Shown here: piece by piece, positions 5,894 to 20,032 of the stretch
How the letters are laid out: each line of letters opens with the position of its first letter
How positions within the stretch are numbered: position 1 is the first letter of the stretch
Origin: a virus
IMG/VR virus record: IMGVR_UViG_3300044952_000033
Span: 1 to 42,288 of that record
Length of the DNA: 42,288 bases
Direction: 5' to 3' (one strand)
Translations under genes and position numbers: made by a program
The notes under the pieces: generated by a model
Database searches by the model: none
Seen by the model: the letters and a program-made list of their open reading frames with translations, nothing else
Told to the model about the DNA's origin: nothing

Positions 5894-6329
5894 AAATCGT
5901 AAACCCCGTGACCTAGAGTCCCGCGAAAAGAATACTCGACCAGTGTATACGCCATCGAGCACATTGCCAGACCCAACACCTATTCCCGGATACAGGTTTC
6001 GCTGGATTGCGACACATGTTCTTGGTCAGGCGGATCCAACAAACGTTTCCCGAAAGATGCGTGATAAATGGGTTCCGGTAAAGGCAGTGGATCATCCGGA
6101 ATTGATGCTTGCTCCTAGTGAGAAGACAGGTAATGTTGAGGTTGGTGGATTGATGCTTTGCAAAATTCCAGAAGACCTCGCAGAAGCTATGGATACTTAC
6201 TATAACCAGCAAGCTAGATCTCAGATGGAATCGGTTGACAATACATTTTTACGACAAAATGATCCGCGTATGCCGTTGTTTGCAGACCGCAAGTCTTCTT
6301 CAACCCGTGGCGGTGCAGGTTTATCTTAA
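5886..6329 (+). CDS. Conserved head-region protein of unknown function
   Basis: A 147-residue soluble protein. Its N-terminus is basic and proline-rich, and its middle reads GYRFRWIATHVLGQADPTNVSRKMRDKWVPV. The C-terminus is polar and ends in a Gly/Ser tail. Similar proteins lie between scaffold and capsid genes in related phages, but I know no assigned function. The start overlaps the scaffold gene by 8 bp and follows a GGAGA ribosome site, so the two are translationally coupled. A minor capsid or assembly role is inferred from position only. Confidence 0.75.
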   Translation: MTENRKPRDLESREKNTRPVYTPSSTLPDPTPIPGYRFRWIATHVLGQADPTNVSRKMRDKWVPVKAVDHPELMLAPSEKTGNVEVGGLMLCKIPEDLAEAMDTYYNQQARSQMESVDNTFLRQNDPRMPLFADRKSSSTRGGAGLS

Positions 6330-6346
6330 TCAATAGGAGTCCTTAA

Positions 6347-6970
6347 ATGGCATCTACAGCTTCTCCCTACGGCTTAAAAGCCGTGAATGAGTTGGGTGGC
6401 CTACCTTACGCAGGTAGCACTCGCTCATTCCTATTCGATCCTGCTGGATATGGCGCAAACGTCTATAACGGAAGTTTGGTATACGTCAAAACTACAGGTT
6501 ATATTGAAATTGTTACCGCTACTGGCGCTGACGCAACTACAAACGGTTTCCCTGTTGGCACTGCTAACACCGGCGCTGTTGGTGTTTTCGTTGGTTGCTC
6601 TTACGTTAACGCACAAGGTCAAACCATTTTTTCACAATACTACCCGTCCGGTTCGCTGAACGCTACAGCATTTGTGATTGATGACGATCGTACTGTGTTC
6701 CAAGTTCAGTCTGCTGGTTCTGTAACCATCGCTGCTCTGGGTGCAAACGTGTTCTTCTCCACAGGCGCAGTGGATACCGGTAGTACATCTACAGGTAACT
6801 CTACCGCTTCTGTTGTGGCTGGCTCTTCCGCTGTTACGACTACCGCCGCTTTCCGCGTCGTTGGTTTCCCTAACATGGTTGGCTTCTCCACAGTAGGTGA
6901 CGCATATACTGATATTCTGGTGAAGTTCAACCCCGGATACCACTCTTACAGCAACGCTGTTGGTCTGTAA
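6347..6970 (+). CDS. Probable capsid decoration/structural protein
   Basis: A 207-residue protein rich in Gly, Ala, Thr, Ser and Val, with no charged helices. It starts MASTASPYGLKAVNELGG and consists of predicted beta strands. This composition, an AGGAG ribosome site and a position 13 bp before the major capsid gene point to a decoration or stabilising protein of the head. Cysteine is nearly absent and there is no signal peptide. The broad role is fairly likely; the exact family is not certain. Confidence 0.7.
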   Translation: MASTASPYGLKAVNELGGLPYAGSTRSFLFDPAGYGANVYNGSLVYVKTTGYIEIVTATGADATTNGFPVGTANTGAVGVFVGCSYVNAQGQTIFSQYYPSGSLNATAFVIDDDRTVFQVQSAGSVTIAALGANVFFSTGAVDTGSTSTGNSTASVVAGSSAVTTTAAFRVVGFPNMVGFSTVGDAYTDILVKFNPGYHSYSNAVGL

Positions 6971-6983
6971 AAGGAGCTAAATC

Positions 6984-7901
6984 ATGGCTATTTCACGCGC
7001 ACAACTACTTAAAGAACTGCTCCCCGGATTGAACGCATTGTTCGGTTTGGAATACGCTCGCTACGGCGAAGAGCACAAAGAGATCTACGAAACAGAAGCA
7101 TCTGAGCGTAGCTTTGAAGAAGAGACCAAACTCGCCGGTTTCGGTGCAGCACCAGTCAAGAACGAGGGACAGGCCATTGCTTATGACAATGCCCAAGAAG
7201 CGTTCACGGCTCGCTACAACCACGAAACCATCGCGTTGGGCTTCTCCATCACCGAAGAGGCTGTGGAAGATAACTTGTATGACTCACTGTCTGCTCGTTA
7301 CACCAAGGCTTTGGCTCGCGCTATGGCGTACACTAAGCAAGTTAAGGCTGCTGCTGTTATCAACAACGGCTTCACTAACTCGTCTCAGTACTACGGCGGC
7401 GACGGCGTACCTTTGTTTAGCATTGCACACCCACTGGTTAACGGTGGAACCAACAGCAATCGTCCTACAACTGGCGCTGATTTGAATGAGACTTCCTTGG
7501 AAGCCGCTGTTATTCAGATCGCCGCTTGGGTGGATGAAAAGGGTCTGTTGATCGCTGCTAAACCTCGTAAGCTGATCGTTCCTCCATCTTTGATGTTCGT
7601 TGCTACTCGCTTGTTAGATACCAACCTCCGTGTTGGCACTGCCGATAACGATATCAACGCATTGAAGAACAATGGTTCGATCCCTGAAGGCTACTGCGTT
7701 AATCACTACCTGACCGACACAAACGGGTGGTATTTGACTACTGACGTGCCTAACGGCTTGAAGCATTTCGAGCGTACTGCATTGACCAACTCAATGGATG
7801 GTGATTTCGACACCGGAAATGTGCGTTACAAGGCCCGCGAGCGCTACAGCTTTGGATGGAGCGATCCGCTCGGAATGTTTGGTTCTCCCGGTTCGTCCTA
7901 A
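6984..7901 (+). CDS. Major capsid protein, Mu gpT-like
   Basis: The 305-residue product matches the Mu-like major head subunit (gpT) group of HK97-fold capsid proteins. It shows GLNALFGLEYARYGEEHKE near the N-terminus, the E-loop-like segment YNHETIALGFSITEEAVED, then LFSIAHPLVNGG and a C-terminal segment ending RERYSFGWSDPLGMFG. A strong ribosome site (AAAGGAG) precedes the ATG. It is the last gene of the first structural unit: a strong terminator follows within 20 bp, fitting a need to insulate a highly expressed gene. Confidence 0.9.
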   Translation: MAISRAQLLKELLPGLNALFGLEYARYGEEHKEIYETEASERSFEEETKLAGFGAAPVKNEGQAIAYDNAQEAFTARYNHETIALGFSITEEAVEDNLYDSLSARYTKALARAMAYTKQVKAAAVINNGFTNSSQYYGGDGVPLFSIAHPLVNGGTNSNRPTTGADLNETSLEAAVIQIAAWVDEKGLLIAAKPRKLIVPPSLMFVATRLLDTNLRVGTADNDINALKNNGSIPEGYCVNHYLTDTNGWYLTTDVPNGLKHFERTALTNSMDGDFDTGNVRYKARERYSFGWSDPLGMFGSPGSS

Positions 7902-7917
7902 GCCCTTGGGCTTGTAG

Positions 7918-7943
7918 AAAAGGCTCCTTCGGGGGCCTTTTTT
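7918..7943 (+). terminator. Rho-independent terminator after the capsid gene
   Basis: A ten-base stem (AAAAGGCTCC with GGGGCCTTTT, one G-U pair) closes a TTCG tetraloop and runs into a T tract. A short AAGCCC/GGGCTT hairpin (7900-7913) lies just before it. This is the only classical intrinsic terminator I see in the window. Confidence 0.9.
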
Positions 7944-7948
7944 ATTTG

Positions 7949-7977
7949 TTGCACACATTTAAACAACATGTTATATT
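7949..7977 (+). promoter_or_regulatory. Sigma70-like promoter, extended -10
   Basis: TTGCAC (7949-7954) and TATATT (7972-7977) are separated by exactly 17 bp, with TG one base before the -10 hexamer (TGTTATATT). It lies 5 bp after the capsid terminator and before the next gene cluster. It would restart transcription with host RNA polymerase near position 7984. Confidence 0.7.
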
Positions 7978-7981
7978 CCAG

Positions 7982-8041
7982 CTAATCCGGGCTTTCCGGT
8001 GCATTAGACAGTCCCGGCTGACGACATACAGACTAATGCGC
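7982..8041 (+). promoter_or_regulatory. Structured leader with alternative hairpins
   Basis: The longest non-coding stretch (7902-8065) carries nested inverted repeats. GCATTAG (8001-8007) pairs perfectly with CTAATGC (8033-8039). Its ATTAG core can instead pair with CTAAT at 7982-7986, around an inner CCGG-GCTTT-CCGG stem (7987-7999). The two pairings exclude each other. The region lies between the promoter and an AAGGAA ribosome site at about 8057. No known riboswitch class was recognised. If transcription starts near 7984 the upstream arm would be partly missing, which weakens the switch idea. Confidence 0.4.
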
Positions 8042-8065
8042 CTAACTTGTATGTAAGGAAAAATC

Positions 8066-8599
8066 ATGGCAAATACCACATTCAATGGCCCAGTTCGCTC
8101 GCAGAATGGCTTTCAATCTATCTCTACCAATGCAACAACTGGCGCAGTCACTGTTACAGCTACCCTTGGCACTGCTACTAGCGTAACAACTTTGGCGGCT
8201 ACAACTGTAACAGCAACAAATCTGGTTTATACAGATCAGAATCACCCAACAACTGCTGCTATTAACGCAACAACCACAGCGACTGGTGCACAAGTTGCTA
8301 CCGGCTACATCACTTCTACGTCAGCCGCATCCACAGTTATTACTTTGCCTACCGGCACTGCTCTTGGCGAAGCCATAGGCGCAGTTCGTGGCACTGTTCT
8401 GGACTTGTATGTTGATAACACTGCTGGTGCGAGCAATGTGACCATTGCTGTTGCGGTCAATGGTATTTTGTCTACAGCCGCCACTGACACTGCTGGCAGT
8501 TTTGGTGACTTGACTATTACTGCTGGTGCAACTGGCATTGGTCGTTTTACCATCATGTTCTCCAGCCCAACAACTTACGTGTTTACACGCACAGCTTAA
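8066..8599 (+). CDS. Thr/Ala-rich structural protein
   Basis: A 177-residue protein, first gene after the promoter. The N-terminal third is a low-complexity run of short Thr/Ala/Val repeats (TGAVTVTATLGTATSVTTL), typical of phage fibre shafts. The C-terminal half looks like a compact beta domain with TVLDLYVDNTAGASNVTIAV and ends in FSSPTTYVFTRTA. It is probably a head fibre or surface decoration protein, since it directly follows the capsid gene. The beta-rich virion nature is likely; its exact place in the particle is unknown. Confidence 0.65.
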   Translation: MANTTFNGPVRSQNGFQSISTNATTGAVTVTATLGTATSVTTLAATTVTATNLVYTDQNHPTTAAINATTTATGAQVATGYITSTSAASTVITLPTGTALGEAIGAVRGTVLDLYVDNTAGASNVTIAVAVNGILSTAATDTAGSFGDLTITAGATGIGRFTIMFSSPTTYVFTRTA

Positions 8600-8607
8600 T
8601 TGATCTT

Positions 8608-8623
8608 GGGGGCTTCGGCCCCC
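8608..8623 (+). other. Perfect GC hairpin with TTCG tetraloop
   Basis: GGGGGC-TTCG-GCCCCC lies between two structural genes. It is very stable but has no T tract, so it is more likely a transcript-stability or processing element than an efficient intrinsic terminator. Confidence 0.6.
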
Positions 8624-8642
8624 GCACTACAGGAGATTGATT

Positions 8643-9146
8643 ATGATGCAAACAGACGTAAAACAGGGACACCTTAATAACTCTGGTTTTGTCCTGTTGG
8701 GTCGAACTAGACTTAAAGCTGCCTCTACGGTTGGCACGGCTACGGCTGGAACACTGGACATTTTTGATACCGCCGCAGCGCCTGTTGCTGCTACGTATGC
8801 AAGGTCTACTACGGTTATTACCGTTACAAAGGTAGCTCACGGTTTGGTTACCGGTGACGTAATTGGTCTTGCGTTTGCCACAGCAAGCGGGTCATCTGGC
8901 ACAAACGGTAATTACTCAATCACACGCACAGGCGCAGACACCTTTACAGTTACAGATATTAACTCTGGAACGATTGCAGGTGGGACAGTGGCGGCATACG
9001 CATCCCTGTGGATTGCTAGTTTTGATGTTGGTGCAACTGACGTGTTTAGTAATTTTGCGTTGATTCCCGGCGAGGGGATACTGGTTAAAAACGGTATCTA
9101 CTTGAACATGAGCAACCTTACTTCTGCCAACGTGTACTATGGCTAA
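8643..9146 (+). CDS. Beta-rich structural protein with a tail-type insertion module
   Basis: The ATG at 8643 is chosen because AGGAG ends 7 bp upstream; a TTG at 8637 would be too close. The 167-residue product contains TVITVTKVAHGLVTGDVIGL, a GNYSITRTGADTFTVTD stretch and a GTIAGG end. This small beta module also appears in many phage structural proteins. A similar module (VTVTDAAGGYVDGDFVTFFG) is seen in the nozzle protein at 23407. The C-terminus (GEGILVKNGIYLNMSN) resembles surface-exposed virion proteins. Function: structural, not further resolved. Confidence 0.7.
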   Translation: MMQTDVKQGHLNNSGFVLLGRTRLKAASTVGTATAGTLDIFDTAAAPVAATYARSTTVITVTKVAHGLVTGDVIGLAFATASGSSGTNGNYSITRTGADTFTVTDINSGTIAGGTVAAYASLWIASFDVGATDVFSNFALIPGEGILVKNGIYLNMSNLTSANVYYG

Positions 9147-9393
9147 GAAAACCCCATCCCTTGCAGTAGGTCGCGGCGAGAAGCTGCCGGTCTCTAAGGG
9201 GGCTGGGCTGACTGCAAAAGGACGTGCTGTTTACAATAAAGCCACAGGATCAAACCTCAAAGCGCCACAGCCGCAAGGCGGTGCTCGCAAGAAGTCATTC
9301 TGTGCGCGTATGTCTGGTATGCCCGGTCCAATGAAGGACGAAAAAGGCAAGCCTACCCGTAAGGCTGCTTCACTAGCTAGATGGAAGTGCTGA
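9139..9393 (+). CDS. Small basic protein of a conserved phage family (DUF6321-like)
   Basis: An 84-residue, strongly basic protein. Its conserved core reads GLTAKGRAVYNKATGSNLKAP, then RKKSFCARMSGMPGPMKDE and a C-terminal KAASLARWKC. I recognise this layout from a family I believe is DUF6321, which occurs in many phages and has no assigned function. The two Cys and many Arg/Lys suggest nucleic-acid or virion binding. The start overlaps the previous gene by 8 bp. It opens the run of small basic genes that continues to 13763. Confidence 0.8.
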   Translation: MAKKTPSLAVGRGEKLPVSKGAGLTAKGRAVYNKATGSNLKAPQPQGGARKKSFCARMSGMPGPMKDEKGKPTRKAASLARWKC

Positions 9394-9401
9394 GGTAAAA
9401 A

Positions 9402-9728
9402 ATGGCTAATAAAGAAGATGAAATTATCAATGGTTTAATGGAAGCAATTAAATCCAAAAAAGATACAGACCCCGGAATGACTCCACGTCGAGATGGTCGC
9501 GGTAGTACTTTTGGTGATGATCCCGGAATGACACCGATGAATAAGGTTGATAGGGAGGATATTGATTTTAATAAACTTCTTAATCGTGATGCGCCTCGTT
9601 CTAGTGCCTCTACAAAAAAGAAACCTTCTAATCCATATAATTTGAAAAATGGCGGAAAAGTTGCCACCGCTTCTAGTCGTGCCGATGGTATAGCCCAGCG
9701 TGGCAAAACCCGTGGGAAGATGTGCTGA
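9402..9728 (+). CDS. Small protein with C-terminal ADGIAQRG motif
   Basis: A 108-residue hydrophilic protein. It has an internal direct repeat (DPGMTPRRD and DPGMTPMNK, about residues 25-48), a charged middle, and the C-terminal motif ASSRADGIAQRGKTRGKMC preceded by NGGK. The same ending is found in the genes at 10961 and, slightly changed, at 11164. Codons differ between the copies, so the peptide rather than the DNA seems to be conserved. No enzyme motif is present. Function unknown; probably a virion-associated or assembly factor. Confidence 0.75.
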   Translation: MANKEDEIINGLMEAIKSKKDTDPGMTPRRDGRGSTFGDDPGMTPMNKVDREDIDFNKLLNRDAPRSSASTKKKPSNPYNLKNGGKVATASSRADGIAQRGKTRGKMC

Positions 9729-9729
9729 T

Positions 9730-9990
9730 ATGGAACTAAGCACAATTTGGTCGGCAGTACTTTCTGTTGTGATGGGGGTTTTTGGCCTATTCGTCAAAGA
9801 AAAGTTTGCTCAAATGAAAGAAATTGGCGAAGACACTAAGCGTGTCGAACGTCTTTTAAACATAACCCGCGAGGAGATTGCCCGTGATACAGTTACTCAA
9901 GCAGAAGTTCAACGAATTACTGACCACATTGACCAACGCTTTAACAAGCTTGAAGCAAAAATTGACCAGCTTATTCAAGCAGGGAAATGA
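9730..9990 (+). CDS. Small membrane protein with coiled coil (spanin- or holin-like shape)
   Basis: Starting at the ATG at 9730, one base after the previous stop, the 86-residue product has one N-terminal membrane helix (about 6-23, WSAVLSVVMGVFGLFV). A long charged amphipathic coiled coil (25-83) follows and ends KLEAKIDQLIQAGK. This shape fits an inner-membrane spanin or a small phage membrane protein. The main lysis genes lie 12 kb away (21382-23388), so a lysis role is uncertain. No lipobox partner was found. Confidence 0.65.
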   Translation: MELSTIWSAVLSVVMGVFGLFVKEKFAQMKEIGEDTKRVERLLNITREEIARDTVTQAEVQRITDHIDQRFNKLEAKIDQLIQAGK

Positions 9991-10001
9991 TGCCAAGTAG
10001 C

Positions 10002-10520
10002 TTATTTTCTTTGTGGGTGTATACGTTGATAACACGTTGTACACAAACCGTGGGAAAGATGTCTTTTTTCTTGCGTTCCACATTGCGTACAGCAGATAAA
10101 ATGACGCGACCATTGGGTAATACTGTGCGTTTCTCGGTGTTCTTTTGGGGTTACCAAAACAAGATTTTCCAGTCGGTTATCTTGAGTGTTTCCATTTTTA
10201 TGATGTACATGAATACCTTTTGGAGCAGTAGTAAGAACCCGATGCTCGTATTCCCATTTGTTTGGTTCGGCAATTTTTATTCGTATGTAGATACAACCAT
10301 CACTTGCTTTGTGAAGACGTTTACTTCCCACGGGAAGTTGTACCCGAATTTGATTTATAACTCTTTGCTTAGTTGCTTTGACTTCATCGGTCATTGCTTT
10401 ATTTGTACAGTTTGGGCAGCGCGGAGCGTAGTGATAGGCATTGCGGTCAATGCGTTTTTTACCGACAATAGGAACATTGCAAAAAGGACATGGTTTAGTA
10501 AAAAGTCTTTTCATACCCAT
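10002..10520 (-). CDS. HNH endonuclease with zinc-binding ends (homing-type)
   Basis: The only - strand gene inside the structural region. Using the ATG at 10520 gives 172 residues; a TTG at 10532 is possible and no good ribosome site separates them. CPFC and CPNC (C11, C14, C35, C38) form an N-terminal zinc knuckle. The HNH core is YEHRV (91-95), HVHHKNGNTQDNRLENL (104-120) and a following PKEHRE. CTQC and CTTC (144-163) form a second zinc knuckle. Free-standing HNH enzymes of this type spread by cutting alleles that lack them. The antisense placement supports recent insertion. It is not needed for virion assembly. Confidence 0.9.
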   Translation of the reverse strand: MGMKRLFTKPCPFCNVPIVGKKRIDRNAYHYAPRCPNCTNKAMTDEVKATKQRVINQIRVQLPVGSKRLHKASDGCIYIRIKIAEPNKWEYEHRVLTTAPKGIHVHHKNGNTQDNRLENLVLVTPKEHRETHSITQWSRHFICCTQCGTQEKRHLSHGLCTTCYQRIHPQRK

Positions 10521-10549
10521 ATTGTATGCCAAGCATAAAAGGAAATCAA

Positions 10550-10960: not shown

Positions 10961-11164
10961 ATGAAATATCCTGACTCCACACCTGTGGATGAGCCTGTAG
11001 CAAAGCCAAAGCAAGCTACTAGCGCACCAAAAAAGGCAAAACCCAAGATGTATCCTGACTCAGTCCCAGTGGATGAGCCAGTGCGTATGGCTAAGGGTGG
11101 CTCCGCTTCTTCTCGTGCAGATGGTATTGCTCAACGTGGTAAAACCCGTGGAAAGATGTGCTAA
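10961..11164 (+). CDS. Small protein with PVDEPV repeats and C-terminal ADGIAQRG motif
   Basis: A 67-residue protein starting immediately after the previous stop. Two copies of YPDS-(T/V)-PVDEPV (residues 3-13 and 31-41) flank a Lys/Pro/Ala-rich linker. The C-terminus MAKGGSASSRADGIAQRGK carries the cluster motif, then TRGKMC, as in the gene at 9402. There is no hydrophobic core of normal size, so it may be disordered and fold on binding a partner. Function unknown. Confidence 0.75.
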   Translation: MKYPDSTPVDEPVAKPKQATSAPKKAKPKMYPDSVPVDEPVRMAKGGSASSRADGIAQRGKTRGKMC

Positions 11165-11748
11165 TGGCTACTAGATGGGACAATCTACCCGGTCTTAGAG
11201 ACGACGTTGTAAAACGTAGCGCTGAAGACGTTGGCAAAGCCAAAAAAGCTGCGAACATAAATTCATCTGACCTAAAGGGTGGAGCACGTCGATCAGTAAT
11301 AGAAGCCGGAGGCCGTGCTGTAAACAGAAACATTGGTCGTGCTGGTGCTGCTGGTGCTGCTTTAGAAGCTGGATATGGCCTTGGTCGTGCAATTGACGAA
11401 AAGACCGGGGCAGGTAAACAAATTGTTGATAAGTCTGGTCTAGGTGATTTAGCCGAGCGCGTTGCCAATAGCCGTGACAAAGTAGAACTTTCGGAAGACG
11501 CTAAGAAGCGTATTGCTAGGGGCGATCTAGACTCTGAAGAGGTTATCCCCTCTAAGAAAAAGAAATCTTCTGGCGGTAAAAATATGTCTATTGAAGGCAA
11601 AATGTACGCCGGTCGCAACCCGGAAATCGATGATGACACGCGGGAATCTGCTGGTGGATACAAACGTGGTGGTAAAGTTGTTTCCAAAGCATCAAGCCGT
11701 GCTGATGGTATTGCACAGCGCGGTAAAACCAAAGGTAGATATATATGA
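11164..11748 (+). CDS. Basic Gly/Ala-rich protein with C-terminal ADGIAQRG motif
   Basis: The ATG at 11164 overlaps the previous TAA by one base. The 194-residue product has a basic N-terminus (MATRWDNLPGLRDDVVKRS), a Gly/Ala stretch (about 55-70, NIGRAGAAGAALEAGYGLGRA) and a charged middle. It ends GGKVVSKASSRADGIAQRGK then TKGRYI, the same motif as its neighbours. It may be a virion-internal or neck-associated protein; this is inferred from position and basic charge only. Confidence 0.7.
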   Translation: MATRWDNLPGLRDDVVKRSAEDVGKAKKAANINSSDLKGGARRSVIEAGGRAVNRNIGRAGAAGAALEAGYGLGRAIDEKTGAGKQIVDKSGLGDLAERVANSRDKVELSEDAKKRIARGDLDSEEVIPSKKKKSSGGKNMSIEGKMYAGRNPEIDDDTRESAGGYKRGGKVVSKASSRADGIAQRGKTKGRYI

Positions 11749-19207: not shown

Positions 19208-19248
19208 CCACATCAATAGGCGGCACAACAAGGTTTGGCAATGAGTAA
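19204..19248 (+). other. 14-codon ORF with strong ribosome site, possible fibre remnant
   Basis: MTTSIGGTTRFGNE is a tiny frame starting at an ATGA overlap with the previous gene, with AGGAG at the right distance. Its opening resembles the beginnings of fibre genes here (for example MTTSATTLLG at 17160). It stops just inside the homing endonuclease gene. It may be the decapitated start of a fibre gene interrupted by the endonuclease, or a leader that couples translation to it. Confidence 0.4.
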
Positions 19249-20032
19249 TTTTGCACCTACTGCTTTGCTCGTGATGACGCACAGGGTCACAGGGTTGAAG
19301 TATTTCTGCAAAACAGCACAACTGAATACGCTAAAGTATTACAGAGGTAGTGGGCATTACTGGAAACGTCATTTAAAAGTTCATGGCAAAGACATTGACG
19401 TAGGCGTTCTCGGTGTTTACTTTGAAGAAGCTAGATGCCTTGCTGCCGCAAAAGAATTTAGTGAACTGCATGACGTTGCAAACAACCCAGAGTGGGCCAA
19501 CCTGATTGCAGAAAATGGTGTTGACGGTGCGCCATCTGGAGTTAACCACCCCATGTACGGGAAGCCAAGCCCATCTAAAGGGCAGAAGCGTCCTTGGGTT
19601 GGAAAAAGTGGTGCTGATAACCCCATGTTCGGAACAGTTTGGTCTGAGGAGCGCCGTAAACAAGCAGTCCTTTCCCGCACAGGGCGACCCTTAAACCGCC
19701 CCTTGGGAAGCAAATCAGGCATGAAAGGTAAGGTATACCCAGAGTCAGGCAAGTTAAAATTGTCGCTGGCTTTAACTGGTCGTGTTAGCCCGAATTGGGG
19801 CAAATTGGCAAGTGAAGAAACCAAGGCAAAAATGAGCGCATCACAGAAGCAATACTGGGATTCTTTGGAAACTCACCCCAATGCGGGAAAAGTTGCTTCT
19901 TTGGAAACCAGAGCAAAGATGTCGGCATCAAAACGCAGCCAAGTCCAATCGGAAGAAACTAAACTAAAACGCTCTGAATCTATCACAGCGTGGCACAAAC
20001 AACGCAAGGAGTCGCTATGTCAGTCAGTGTGA
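19241..20032 (+). CDS. Homing endonuclease, GIY-YIG-like with NUMOD3 repeats
   Basis: From ATG 19241 (AAGG 7 bp upstream) the product is 263 residues. The N-terminal ~95 residues (THRVTGLKYFCKTAQLNTLK, then YYRGSGHYWKRHLKVHG) follow the pattern of T4 Seg-like GIY-YIG nucleases. The rest holds NUMOD3-type DNA-binding motifs: NHPMYGKPSPSKG (102-114), ADNPMFGTVWSEERRKQAV (125-143), SPNWGKLASEETKAKMSASQ (183-202) and HPNAGKVASLETRAKMSASK (212-231). Such enzymes move by cutting allelic sites. It sits between fibre genes and overlaps the next gene by 16 bp. Confidence 0.85.
   Translation: MSNFAPTALLVMTHRVTGLKYFCKTAQLNTLKYYRGSGHYWKRHLKVHGKDIDVGVLGVYFEEARCLAAAKEFSELHDVANNPEWANLIAENGVDGAPSGVNHPMYGKPSPSKGQKRPWVGKSGADNPMFGTVWSEERRKQAVLSRTGRPLNRPLGSKSGMKGKVYPESGKLKLSLALTGRVSPNWGKLASEETKAKMSASQKQYWDSLETHPNAGKVASLETRAKMSASKRSQVQSEETKLKRSESITAWHKQRKESLCQSV

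Follow-up and report, generated by a model that had tools for sequence, protein, structure and literature searches.

A candidate interlocked four-helix RNA, related to Mu-gpT-DE, in the leader that follows the capsid gene of an uncultured virus

The stretch between the capsid gene and the gene that follows it in an uncultured virus fits an RNA of four interlocked helices, arranged in the order a-b-d-a'-d'-c-b'-c' over about 68 nt (7987-8054, plus strand). Coordinates are those of the window, by which we mean the whole stretch of DNA that was analysed: positions 1-42,288 of the IMG/VR record IMGVR_UViG_3300044952_000033, 42,288 bases in length. Comparison of sequences from related viruses supports the fold well, and it would presumably form in cells. 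The RNA is not in Rfam 15 at the scopes searched (the window, 20 relatives and the HTVC023P leader), and we would class it as a new, larger variant akin to the Mu-gpT-DE RNA, one that fails the score test of that family (RF03012). As to its role, we lean towards a gate that acts in cis on translation of the gene directly following that for the capsid, a reading that we consider somewhat probable; the leader would then regulate that gene, in one direction or the other and perhaps with the help of a factor that opens or locks the fold.

The leader in the window

The window encodes a large terminase, a portal and a gpT-like capsid protein, the last matching PF10124 (Mu-like_gpT) and PF25209 in Pfam; a megablast comparison of window positions 1-25000 with named phages gave no match. 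The capsid gene has its stop at 7901 and the next gene runs from 8066, and the space between them holds a hairpin, a promoter-like site and the leader. The hairpin, read from the sequence, is terminator-like and carries a T run (7918-7946, plus strand). Similar hairpins are found 3' of the capsid gene in many relatives; a strict terminator scan of the window did not have the one at 7918-7946 among its matches. The promoter-like site (7949-7977, plus strand) consists of TTGCAC at 7949-7954, a spacer of 17 nt and the extended -10 TGTTATATT, with the -10 itself at 7972-7977; a promoter scan scores the same site as TGCACA-16-TATATT, with TG ahead of the -10. Five promoter-like sites were counted in 6000-10000 against a mean of 4.2 in shuffled sequence, so the match in the window means little when taken alone. 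The preliminary description had proposed that the late genes are preceded by a promoter and a folding leader, which could set expression of the entire late operon, and had considered a start of transcription near 7984. A promoter-like site and a structured leader are present in the sequence, an effect of the leader on the whole late operon is conceivable, and from the position of the -10 we arrive at the same likely start, which predicts a leader of about 82 bases up to the gene at 8066.

Within this leader, all on the plus strand, helix a joins CCGGG near the 5' end (7987-7991) to CCCGG (a', 8013-8017), which sits in the loop of mini-hairpin d (CAG at 8009-8011, CTG at 8018-8020). Helix b, formed by GGTGCATTAG (7998-8007) and CTAATGCGCC (8033-8042), encloses both the mini-hairpin and the 5' strand of helix c, ACATACAG (8024-8031). 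The 3' strand of c, TTGTATGT (8047-8054), ends where the Shine-Dalgarno (SD) sequence AAGGA begins (8055-8059); in the window the SD itself is unpaired, and c' simply abuts it. An A (8008) forms the junction from b to d, and the junction after d' is ACG (8021-8023). A second CCGG (a'', 7996-7999), which overlaps the start of b, is an alternative partner for 7987-7990 and would give a short hairpin that excludes helix a. The four-helix descriptor defined below fits the leader of the window, and it fits 4 of 3000 dinucleotide shuffles of the same leader. Nested folding of 7979-8110 was not stabler than shuffled sequence (z = +0.75; 155 of 200 shuffles equal or better). A start-stop pair, ATG-TAA, lies across the end of c' and the SD (8051-8056), and ATG-TAA or ATG-TGA is seen there in many leaders of the CCGG class.

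This arrangement modifies the earlier reading of the leader, in which ATTAG (8003-8007) was to pair either with CTAAT downstream (8033-8037) or with CTAAT upstream (7982-7986). The downstream stem is real, and at ten pairs with one wobble (7998-8007/8033-8042) it is the nine-pair stem noted before plus one pair. The competing upstream arm is there in the window, but just 2 of 99 distinct leaders have it, one of them (L025) identical to the RNA of the window, and we reject it as a conserved alternative partner. Mutually exclusive hairpins are accordingly not upheld for 7982-7986; they are found for another arm, 7987-7990 with 7996-7999. An account built on a promoter-like site and a stem was sound in both its parts, but incomplete, the stem being one of four interlocked helices.

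Distribution in related viruses

Relatives were taken as the best 80 of about 600 matches by capsid protein together with the best 80 of about 600 by downstream protein, of which 78 were new, giving 158 loci. The descriptor demanded five exact pairs in a/a', three to four exact pairs in d/d', and b and c over a score threshold. It fitted the plus strand in 131 of the 158 relatives from these best-80-of-about-600 sets, or 132 of 159 sequences when the window is included; five fits on the minus strand (L048, L050, L052, L110 and L119) were dropped as chance. A covariance model, R1, recovered 16 of the 27 loci missed by the descriptor at E<=0.001, and L096 weakly, so that 147 of the 158 loci hold the RNA by one or the other (R1 at E<=0.001). 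Ten of the 158 had no RNA by descriptor or R1: L004, L007, L050, L052, L055, L063, L100, L153, L154 and L156. Among these, the sequences of L050 and L052 stop inside the leader or ahead of it, and those of L154 and L156 start inside the downstream gene. In whole records, R1 found exactly one match in 30 of 43 and never two, many of these records being fragments; four of the 30 matches have E above 0.001, and one, that in ct2G2228, lies away from the capsid gap.

Viral contigs were also scanned with an exact pattern, which gave at least 119 stretches, with 78 new loci among the 80 listed. Upstream DNA of 300 bases or more is available for 72 of the new loci, and among these listed matches a capsid gene lies within 1.5 kb upstream in 70 of the 72; the two exceptions, L276 and L285, have a different upstream sequence. 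The gap between capsid and RNA measures 701-1147 bases in 17 of 64 capsid loci (L001, L002, L010, L012, L016, L024, L028, L030, L041, L051, L053, L057, L058, L064, L066, L071 and L078), and the RNA is still directly 5' of the next gene in each. By eye, the extra sequence in some of these 17 loci is homing-endonuclease-like, and reading frames of similar appearance are present in the window, at 10002-10532 (minus strand) and 19235-20032 (plus strand).

A tblastn search with the capsid protein returned 21 named records, 12 of which were examined. The leaders of HTVC023P, DSL-LC04 and ct7L0027 have the four-helix order and are all R1 matches too, and the carriers of the RNA include a lake phage (DSL-LC04) as well as a Pelagibacter phage (HTVC023P). 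HTVC027P and 023Pt_psg01 (L163), both missed by R1, have the order only by eye-picked helices, with a d of two pairs; in 023Pt_psg01 the surroundings of the junction letters AC and GA differ, and the eye-picked helices still pair. For L048, eye-picked arms gave no fit for a and b, and for L161 the arms of b were unequal in length and the check was negative. CRP-901 and CRP-902 have the Mu-gpT-DE type at the site, and Pag-Yong1, QDWS535, ct2G2228, GB2A and ct2os315 showed neither type by eye, R1 being without a match at the place. Capsid relatives were also found in bacterial genome contigs, at 22 loci in uncultured bins; the host names of these bins conflict, and we therefore infer no host.

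Conservation and covariation

Removal of duplicates from the 132 leaders left 99 distinct sequences, which were aligned with MAFFT (alignment A1); L053 and parts of the CCTAG class are misplaced in it, and these rows were retained. In A1, 22 of 26 pairs show two-sided changes and 87.9% of cells pair. The covariation score of 0.545 exceeds the 0.194 obtained with shuffles and the 0.06-0.10 obtained when partners are slid; the figures for A1 are inflated by the selection of the rows with a descriptor that demands pairing. Two-sided changes occur in four of the five pairs of helix a, all ten of b, two of the three of d and six of the eight of c. Covariation in relatives had been proposed as a check on the downstream stem, and that stem, helix b, passes it: each of its ten pairs varies on both strands and 90.5% of cells pair, in rows pre-chosen for pairing.

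The element measures 66-75 nt from a to c' in the 132 leaders, and its helices are kept while their letters change. Helix a occurs as CCGGG, CTGGG, CTAGG, CCTAG, CCGAG, CCAAG, CTCGG, CTTGG and TCGGG, among others, with a partner that matches each; hairpin d occurs as CAG, CTG, CGGC, CCG, CTAG, CCA, CTGG and CGG, likewise with matching partners. Conserved unpaired letters are few, with 2 invariant and 9 nearly invariant columns in the 99 leaders. The junction A is present in 97 of the 99, AC in 93 and GA in 81, and the C-G pair that closes d is found in every one. Among CCGG leaders 60 of 61 have the alternative hairpin a/a'', and so do 4 of 4 CCGA leaders, where the partner becomes TCGG, as against 2 of 34 others; since it is kept in 64 of 65 leaders of the two classes, a two-state leader working through the a'' arm is possible there.

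To counter the pairing-based choice of the rows in A1, R1 was applied to loci outside that alignment. The model has pairs only in b and d, and its sequence positions span the whole element, a and c included. Thirty-nine loci were considered: 29 of 34 matches among the first relatives, leaving out the window, L020 and L119 (cut off), and L096 and L167 (weak), and 10 of 20 large-type matches with CRP-902-type capsids, the other ten being mostly near-copies. Helix c, with at least five pairs, is present in 39 of 39, and helix a, with at least five Watson-Crick pairs, in 34; the exceptions are L048, L054, L077 (three pairs), L191 (four) and L376, in which the upstream part is outside the match. 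The a' strand is thus supported by R1-found loci as well as by covariation, and b' and c' by covariation. It is not unusual for chance to give a five-pair helix a in a single row (p up to 0.21 in rows having helix a; up to 0.08 for c), so the weight rests on agreement over rows with different letters. Since the model also has sequence positions in a and c, the check answers the selection bias for these two helices only in part.

Signals upstream and downstream of the RNA

A -10-like hexamer lies 4-14 nt 5' of the RNA in 78 of the 97 distinct leaders with enough upstream DNA, compared with about 31 in shuffles, and in 56 of these 78 the spacing to helix a is 8-9 nt. The hexamer is weak in the CTAGG class (5 of 11 leaders, about 2 expected). 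Three loci, L006, L009 and L074, have the capsid hairpin immediately 5' of the RNA, and in these the fold may be internal to a longer transcript. For most classes, the promoter-like sites would place the fold at the 5' end of a predicted mRNA.

On its other side, the RNA keeps a fixed relation to a start codon. In all 132 leaders (plus strand, window included) c' ends 7-18 nt 5' of an ATG, and the frame from that ATG has at least 60 codons in 118 and runs off the end of the contig in 13. An SD-like core is at the end of c' in 97 of the 132, inside c' in 18 and 1-5 nt after it in 15, and none was found in 2. The first gene after the capsid in the window (8066-8599, plus strand, from the list of open reading frames and from comparison) begins with the residues MANTTFNGPVRSQNGF. 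Its N-terminal 12-16 residues are common to the first-gene proteins of the window, HTVC023P, DSL-LC04 and CRP-902; BLAST among these four proteins found nothing beyond those residues, and Pfam had no match for any of them. The deposited annotation of DSL-LC04 names its first-gene product a "cement protein". Across the 132 leaders the N-termini are MAxTTFxGP-like in 102, MGFATHLGP-like in 18, STTQS-like in 3 and of other kinds in 9.

The 12-16 shared residues (MAxTTFxGP...; window 8066-8113) stand on otherwise dissimilar proteins, as if the RNA and the N-terminal codons made up a cassette and the bodies were exchangeable. Further along the window, neighbouring small proteins share a near-identical tail, terminal or internal (ASSRADGIAQRGKTRGKMC-like), noted at 9681-9728, 11117-11164, 11701-11748 and from 13325 onward.

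Relation to Mu-gpT-DE

Searched with Rfam 15, the window gave 0 matches at the gathering score, and at E<=5 no match lay mainly within 7984-8065. The 20 relatives searched gave one tRNA and nothing else, and the HTVC023P leader two chance-level matches at E<=10. The Roseobacter phage CRP-902 scores 72.3 bits with RF03012, above the cut-off of 49 bits, and is the sole match in 50 records; the RF03012 covariance model (53 positions; cut-off 49 bits) matched none of five records, the RNA of the window included. Mu-gpT-DE reportedly comes from the 2017 Weinberg motif set.

In its place and plan the Mu-gpT-DE RNA resembles that of the window. In CRP-902 it lies in the gap that separates a gpT-like capsid gene from the gene that follows, and reaches the start of the latter; the core has the same order, b - A - d - AC - c - GA - b'; and an outer stem encloses a hairpin (b and d), as in the structure line of Rfam. 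The junction letters are in the Rfam consensus as well, and in 27 small leaders they were set by the search pattern. Mu-gpT-DE also differs from it: no 5' strand a is seen, the loops that close d are short or variable, b has 4-5 pairs and overlaps the SD, and strand c pairs with the start codon, whereas in the window c pairs with 8047-8054, 5' of the SD. Pairing between the d loop of Mu-gpT-DE and the junction strand was considered and dropped, d often being closed by short loops.

All 27 distinct small leaders show the start-codon pairing: strand c fits ATG and codon 2 by 4-6 Watson-Crick pairs, in leaders found with a pattern that itself demanded ATGGC or ATGGG and the junction letters. GCC goes with ATGGC in 20 and CCC with ATGGG in 7 (34 and 26 of 60 loci), and as the 27 leaders are related, few independent changes may underlie these counts. 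Dropping the demand on codon 2 from the pattern brought no further leaders. The Rfam model of RF03012 stops at the AUG, and its structure line has no start-codon pairing. Codon 2 is GCT or GGT in nearly all of the leaders formed by L165 (4996-5048) and the 27 distinct small ones.

The RNA of the window and Mu-gpT-DE occupy the same site as alternatives and replace each other. Among loci with CRP-902-type capsids (best 80 of about 600), 58 have the small type by pattern and 20 have the window type by R1; no locus has both, and two (L198 and L247) have neither. The large form in L174 and L180 and the small form in L181 and L183 accompany capsids that are 97-98% identical to that of CRP-902; the first genes of the two pairs differ, and the following gene is closely similar. 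A quick tree of capsids, with 89 rows (29 of the large form and 60 of the small), implies at least five changes of type by parsimony, two of them forced by well-supported branches.

No description of the four-helix leader was recognised in the literature searched, the scope of which did not extend to the original Mu-gpT-DE paper. A published analysis counts RF03012 among the families that have no covarying pairs in their database structure and are aligned differently in Rfam and in ZWD (PMC7657543); the start-codon pairing, or even the larger form, may already be contained in that analysis.

Proposed function and alternatives

Helix c contacts the initiation region in each form of the RNA: in the large form it lies just 5' of the SD, or on it in one class, and in Mu-gpT-DE it covers the start codon. 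Given that it falls in the ribosome landing zone in both forms, a gate that controls translation in cis is the simplest reading, for which comparison provides the helices, their fixed place, the lack of a second copy in the 43 records and this contact. Transcription would start about 1-3 nt 5' of helix a where a -10 is found, making the fold nearly the 5' end of the mRNA; the leader would fold as a compact chain of pseudoknots, in which the d loop pairs with the 5' end (a) and c with the stretch before the SD. The forming or melting of helix c, and of b, would then decide the access of the 30S subunit to the ribosome-binding site, and the gate would set the rate or the time at which the first-gene product is made. 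The first genes have several N-terminal types, and no single product is therefore an obvious regulator.

The spacing of 8-9 nt between the -10 and helix a in 56 of 78 leaders, which makes the fold a 5' end, would also suit an mRNA stabiliser, a knot that hides the end from 5'-end-dependent decay with the contact to the SD as a secondary matter, and the small number of conserved unpaired letters fits such a mechanical role. We think this unlikely, though the best of the alternatives: the CTAGG class (-10 in 5 of 11, about 2 expected), in which the fold is perhaps inside a longer transcript, and the loci L006, L009 and L074, with the capsid hairpin directly upstream, do not fit it well, and it leaves unexplained why c' tracks the SD, or the start codon in the small type. 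Slightly less likely again is a switch in which a metabolite, or a phage or host protein such as an unassembled head protein, binds the fold and represses or activates. The leader pseudoknot of T4 gene 32, which is bound by protein, is a precedent in the part of the source available (PMC3014915). The near-invariant A, AC and GA and the closing C-G of d could be a binding site, and the a/a'' hairpin conserved in the CCGG and CCGA classes could serve such a switch; against it, 023Pt_psg01 departs from the AC and GA surroundings with its eye-picked helices still pairing, the downstream genes are of several types, and 2 invariant and 9 nearly invariant columns are a small number for an aptamer that binds a small molecule. 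So low a number of invariant letters argues against an aptamer of that kind or a ribozyme, and not against a protein binder.

Two further readings appear improbable. HK022 put is an antitermination RNA that acts in cis, and a put-like RNA, modifying RNA polymerase while nascent, would let it read through a long late operon. The RNA does have a terminator-like hairpin and a promoter-like site ahead of it, and behind it the long reading frames are mostly on the plus strand, up to 40352; antitermination, however, has no need of a fixed distance to the SD or of pairing with the start codon, yet both are kept in these leaders, and we hold this to be a poor candidate. Least credible of all is a self-cleaving ribozyme or a processed RNA. 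Compact pseudoknots do occur in small ribozymes, and CTGACGA in the window resembles a box of the hammerhead, whose core has invariant CUGANGA and GAAA. The CTG of that box, however, belongs to the variable stem d (CTG, CAG, CTAG, CCG and others), invariant letters are few, and no Rfam ribozyme matched in the window; the hammerhead was rejected, as the CTG varies with its partner and Rfam has no match.

Beyond the translational gate itself lies a broader idea that we offer as speculation and rather doubt. The RNA of the window and Mu-gpT-DE would be two forms of a single superfamily of translational switches in phages, as yet undescribed. Its conserved b/d/c junction would keep closed the initiation region of the gene behind the capsid gene, and the larger form would add a lock between loop and 5' end (helix a) and a competing prefold (a''). 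An intermediate of capsid assembly, or a host factor, would throw the switch, and RNA, N-terminal codons and gene body would be a cassette swapped among lake and ocean phages, HTVC023P-type pelagiphages included.

If the gate is true, an interlocked RNA of four helices in fewer than 80 nt, of which the fold rather than the letters is kept from DSL-LC04 to HTVC023P, would be an unusual instance of RNA control next to a capsid gene. Mu-gpT-DE, for which we found no described role, would gain in the start-codon pairing a concrete hypothesis of function.

Comparison with other known systems

Pseudoknots have a place in translational operators, as in the S4 ribosomal-protein operator. The S15 operator is a pseudoknot too, according to the part of the source available (PMC3014915). 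Both share with the leader described here a pseudoknot tied to translation, and differ in that they belong to bacterial autoregulation. In the timP mRNA of a type I toxin-antitoxin system, exclusive conformations exist and a pseudoknotted one is needed for translation, as stated in the available part of PMC11228461; its genes and its fold are others, and it serves as an example of a possible mode of working. The T4 gene 32 operator is likewise a pseudoknot in a phage mRNA leader tied to translation of the following gene, lying 67 nt upstream of the start codon and bound by gp32 (PMC3014915, same part). That operator is one remote pseudoknot with gp32 as its binder, whereas the leader of the window has four helices that reach the SD, and a binder for it is hypothetical.
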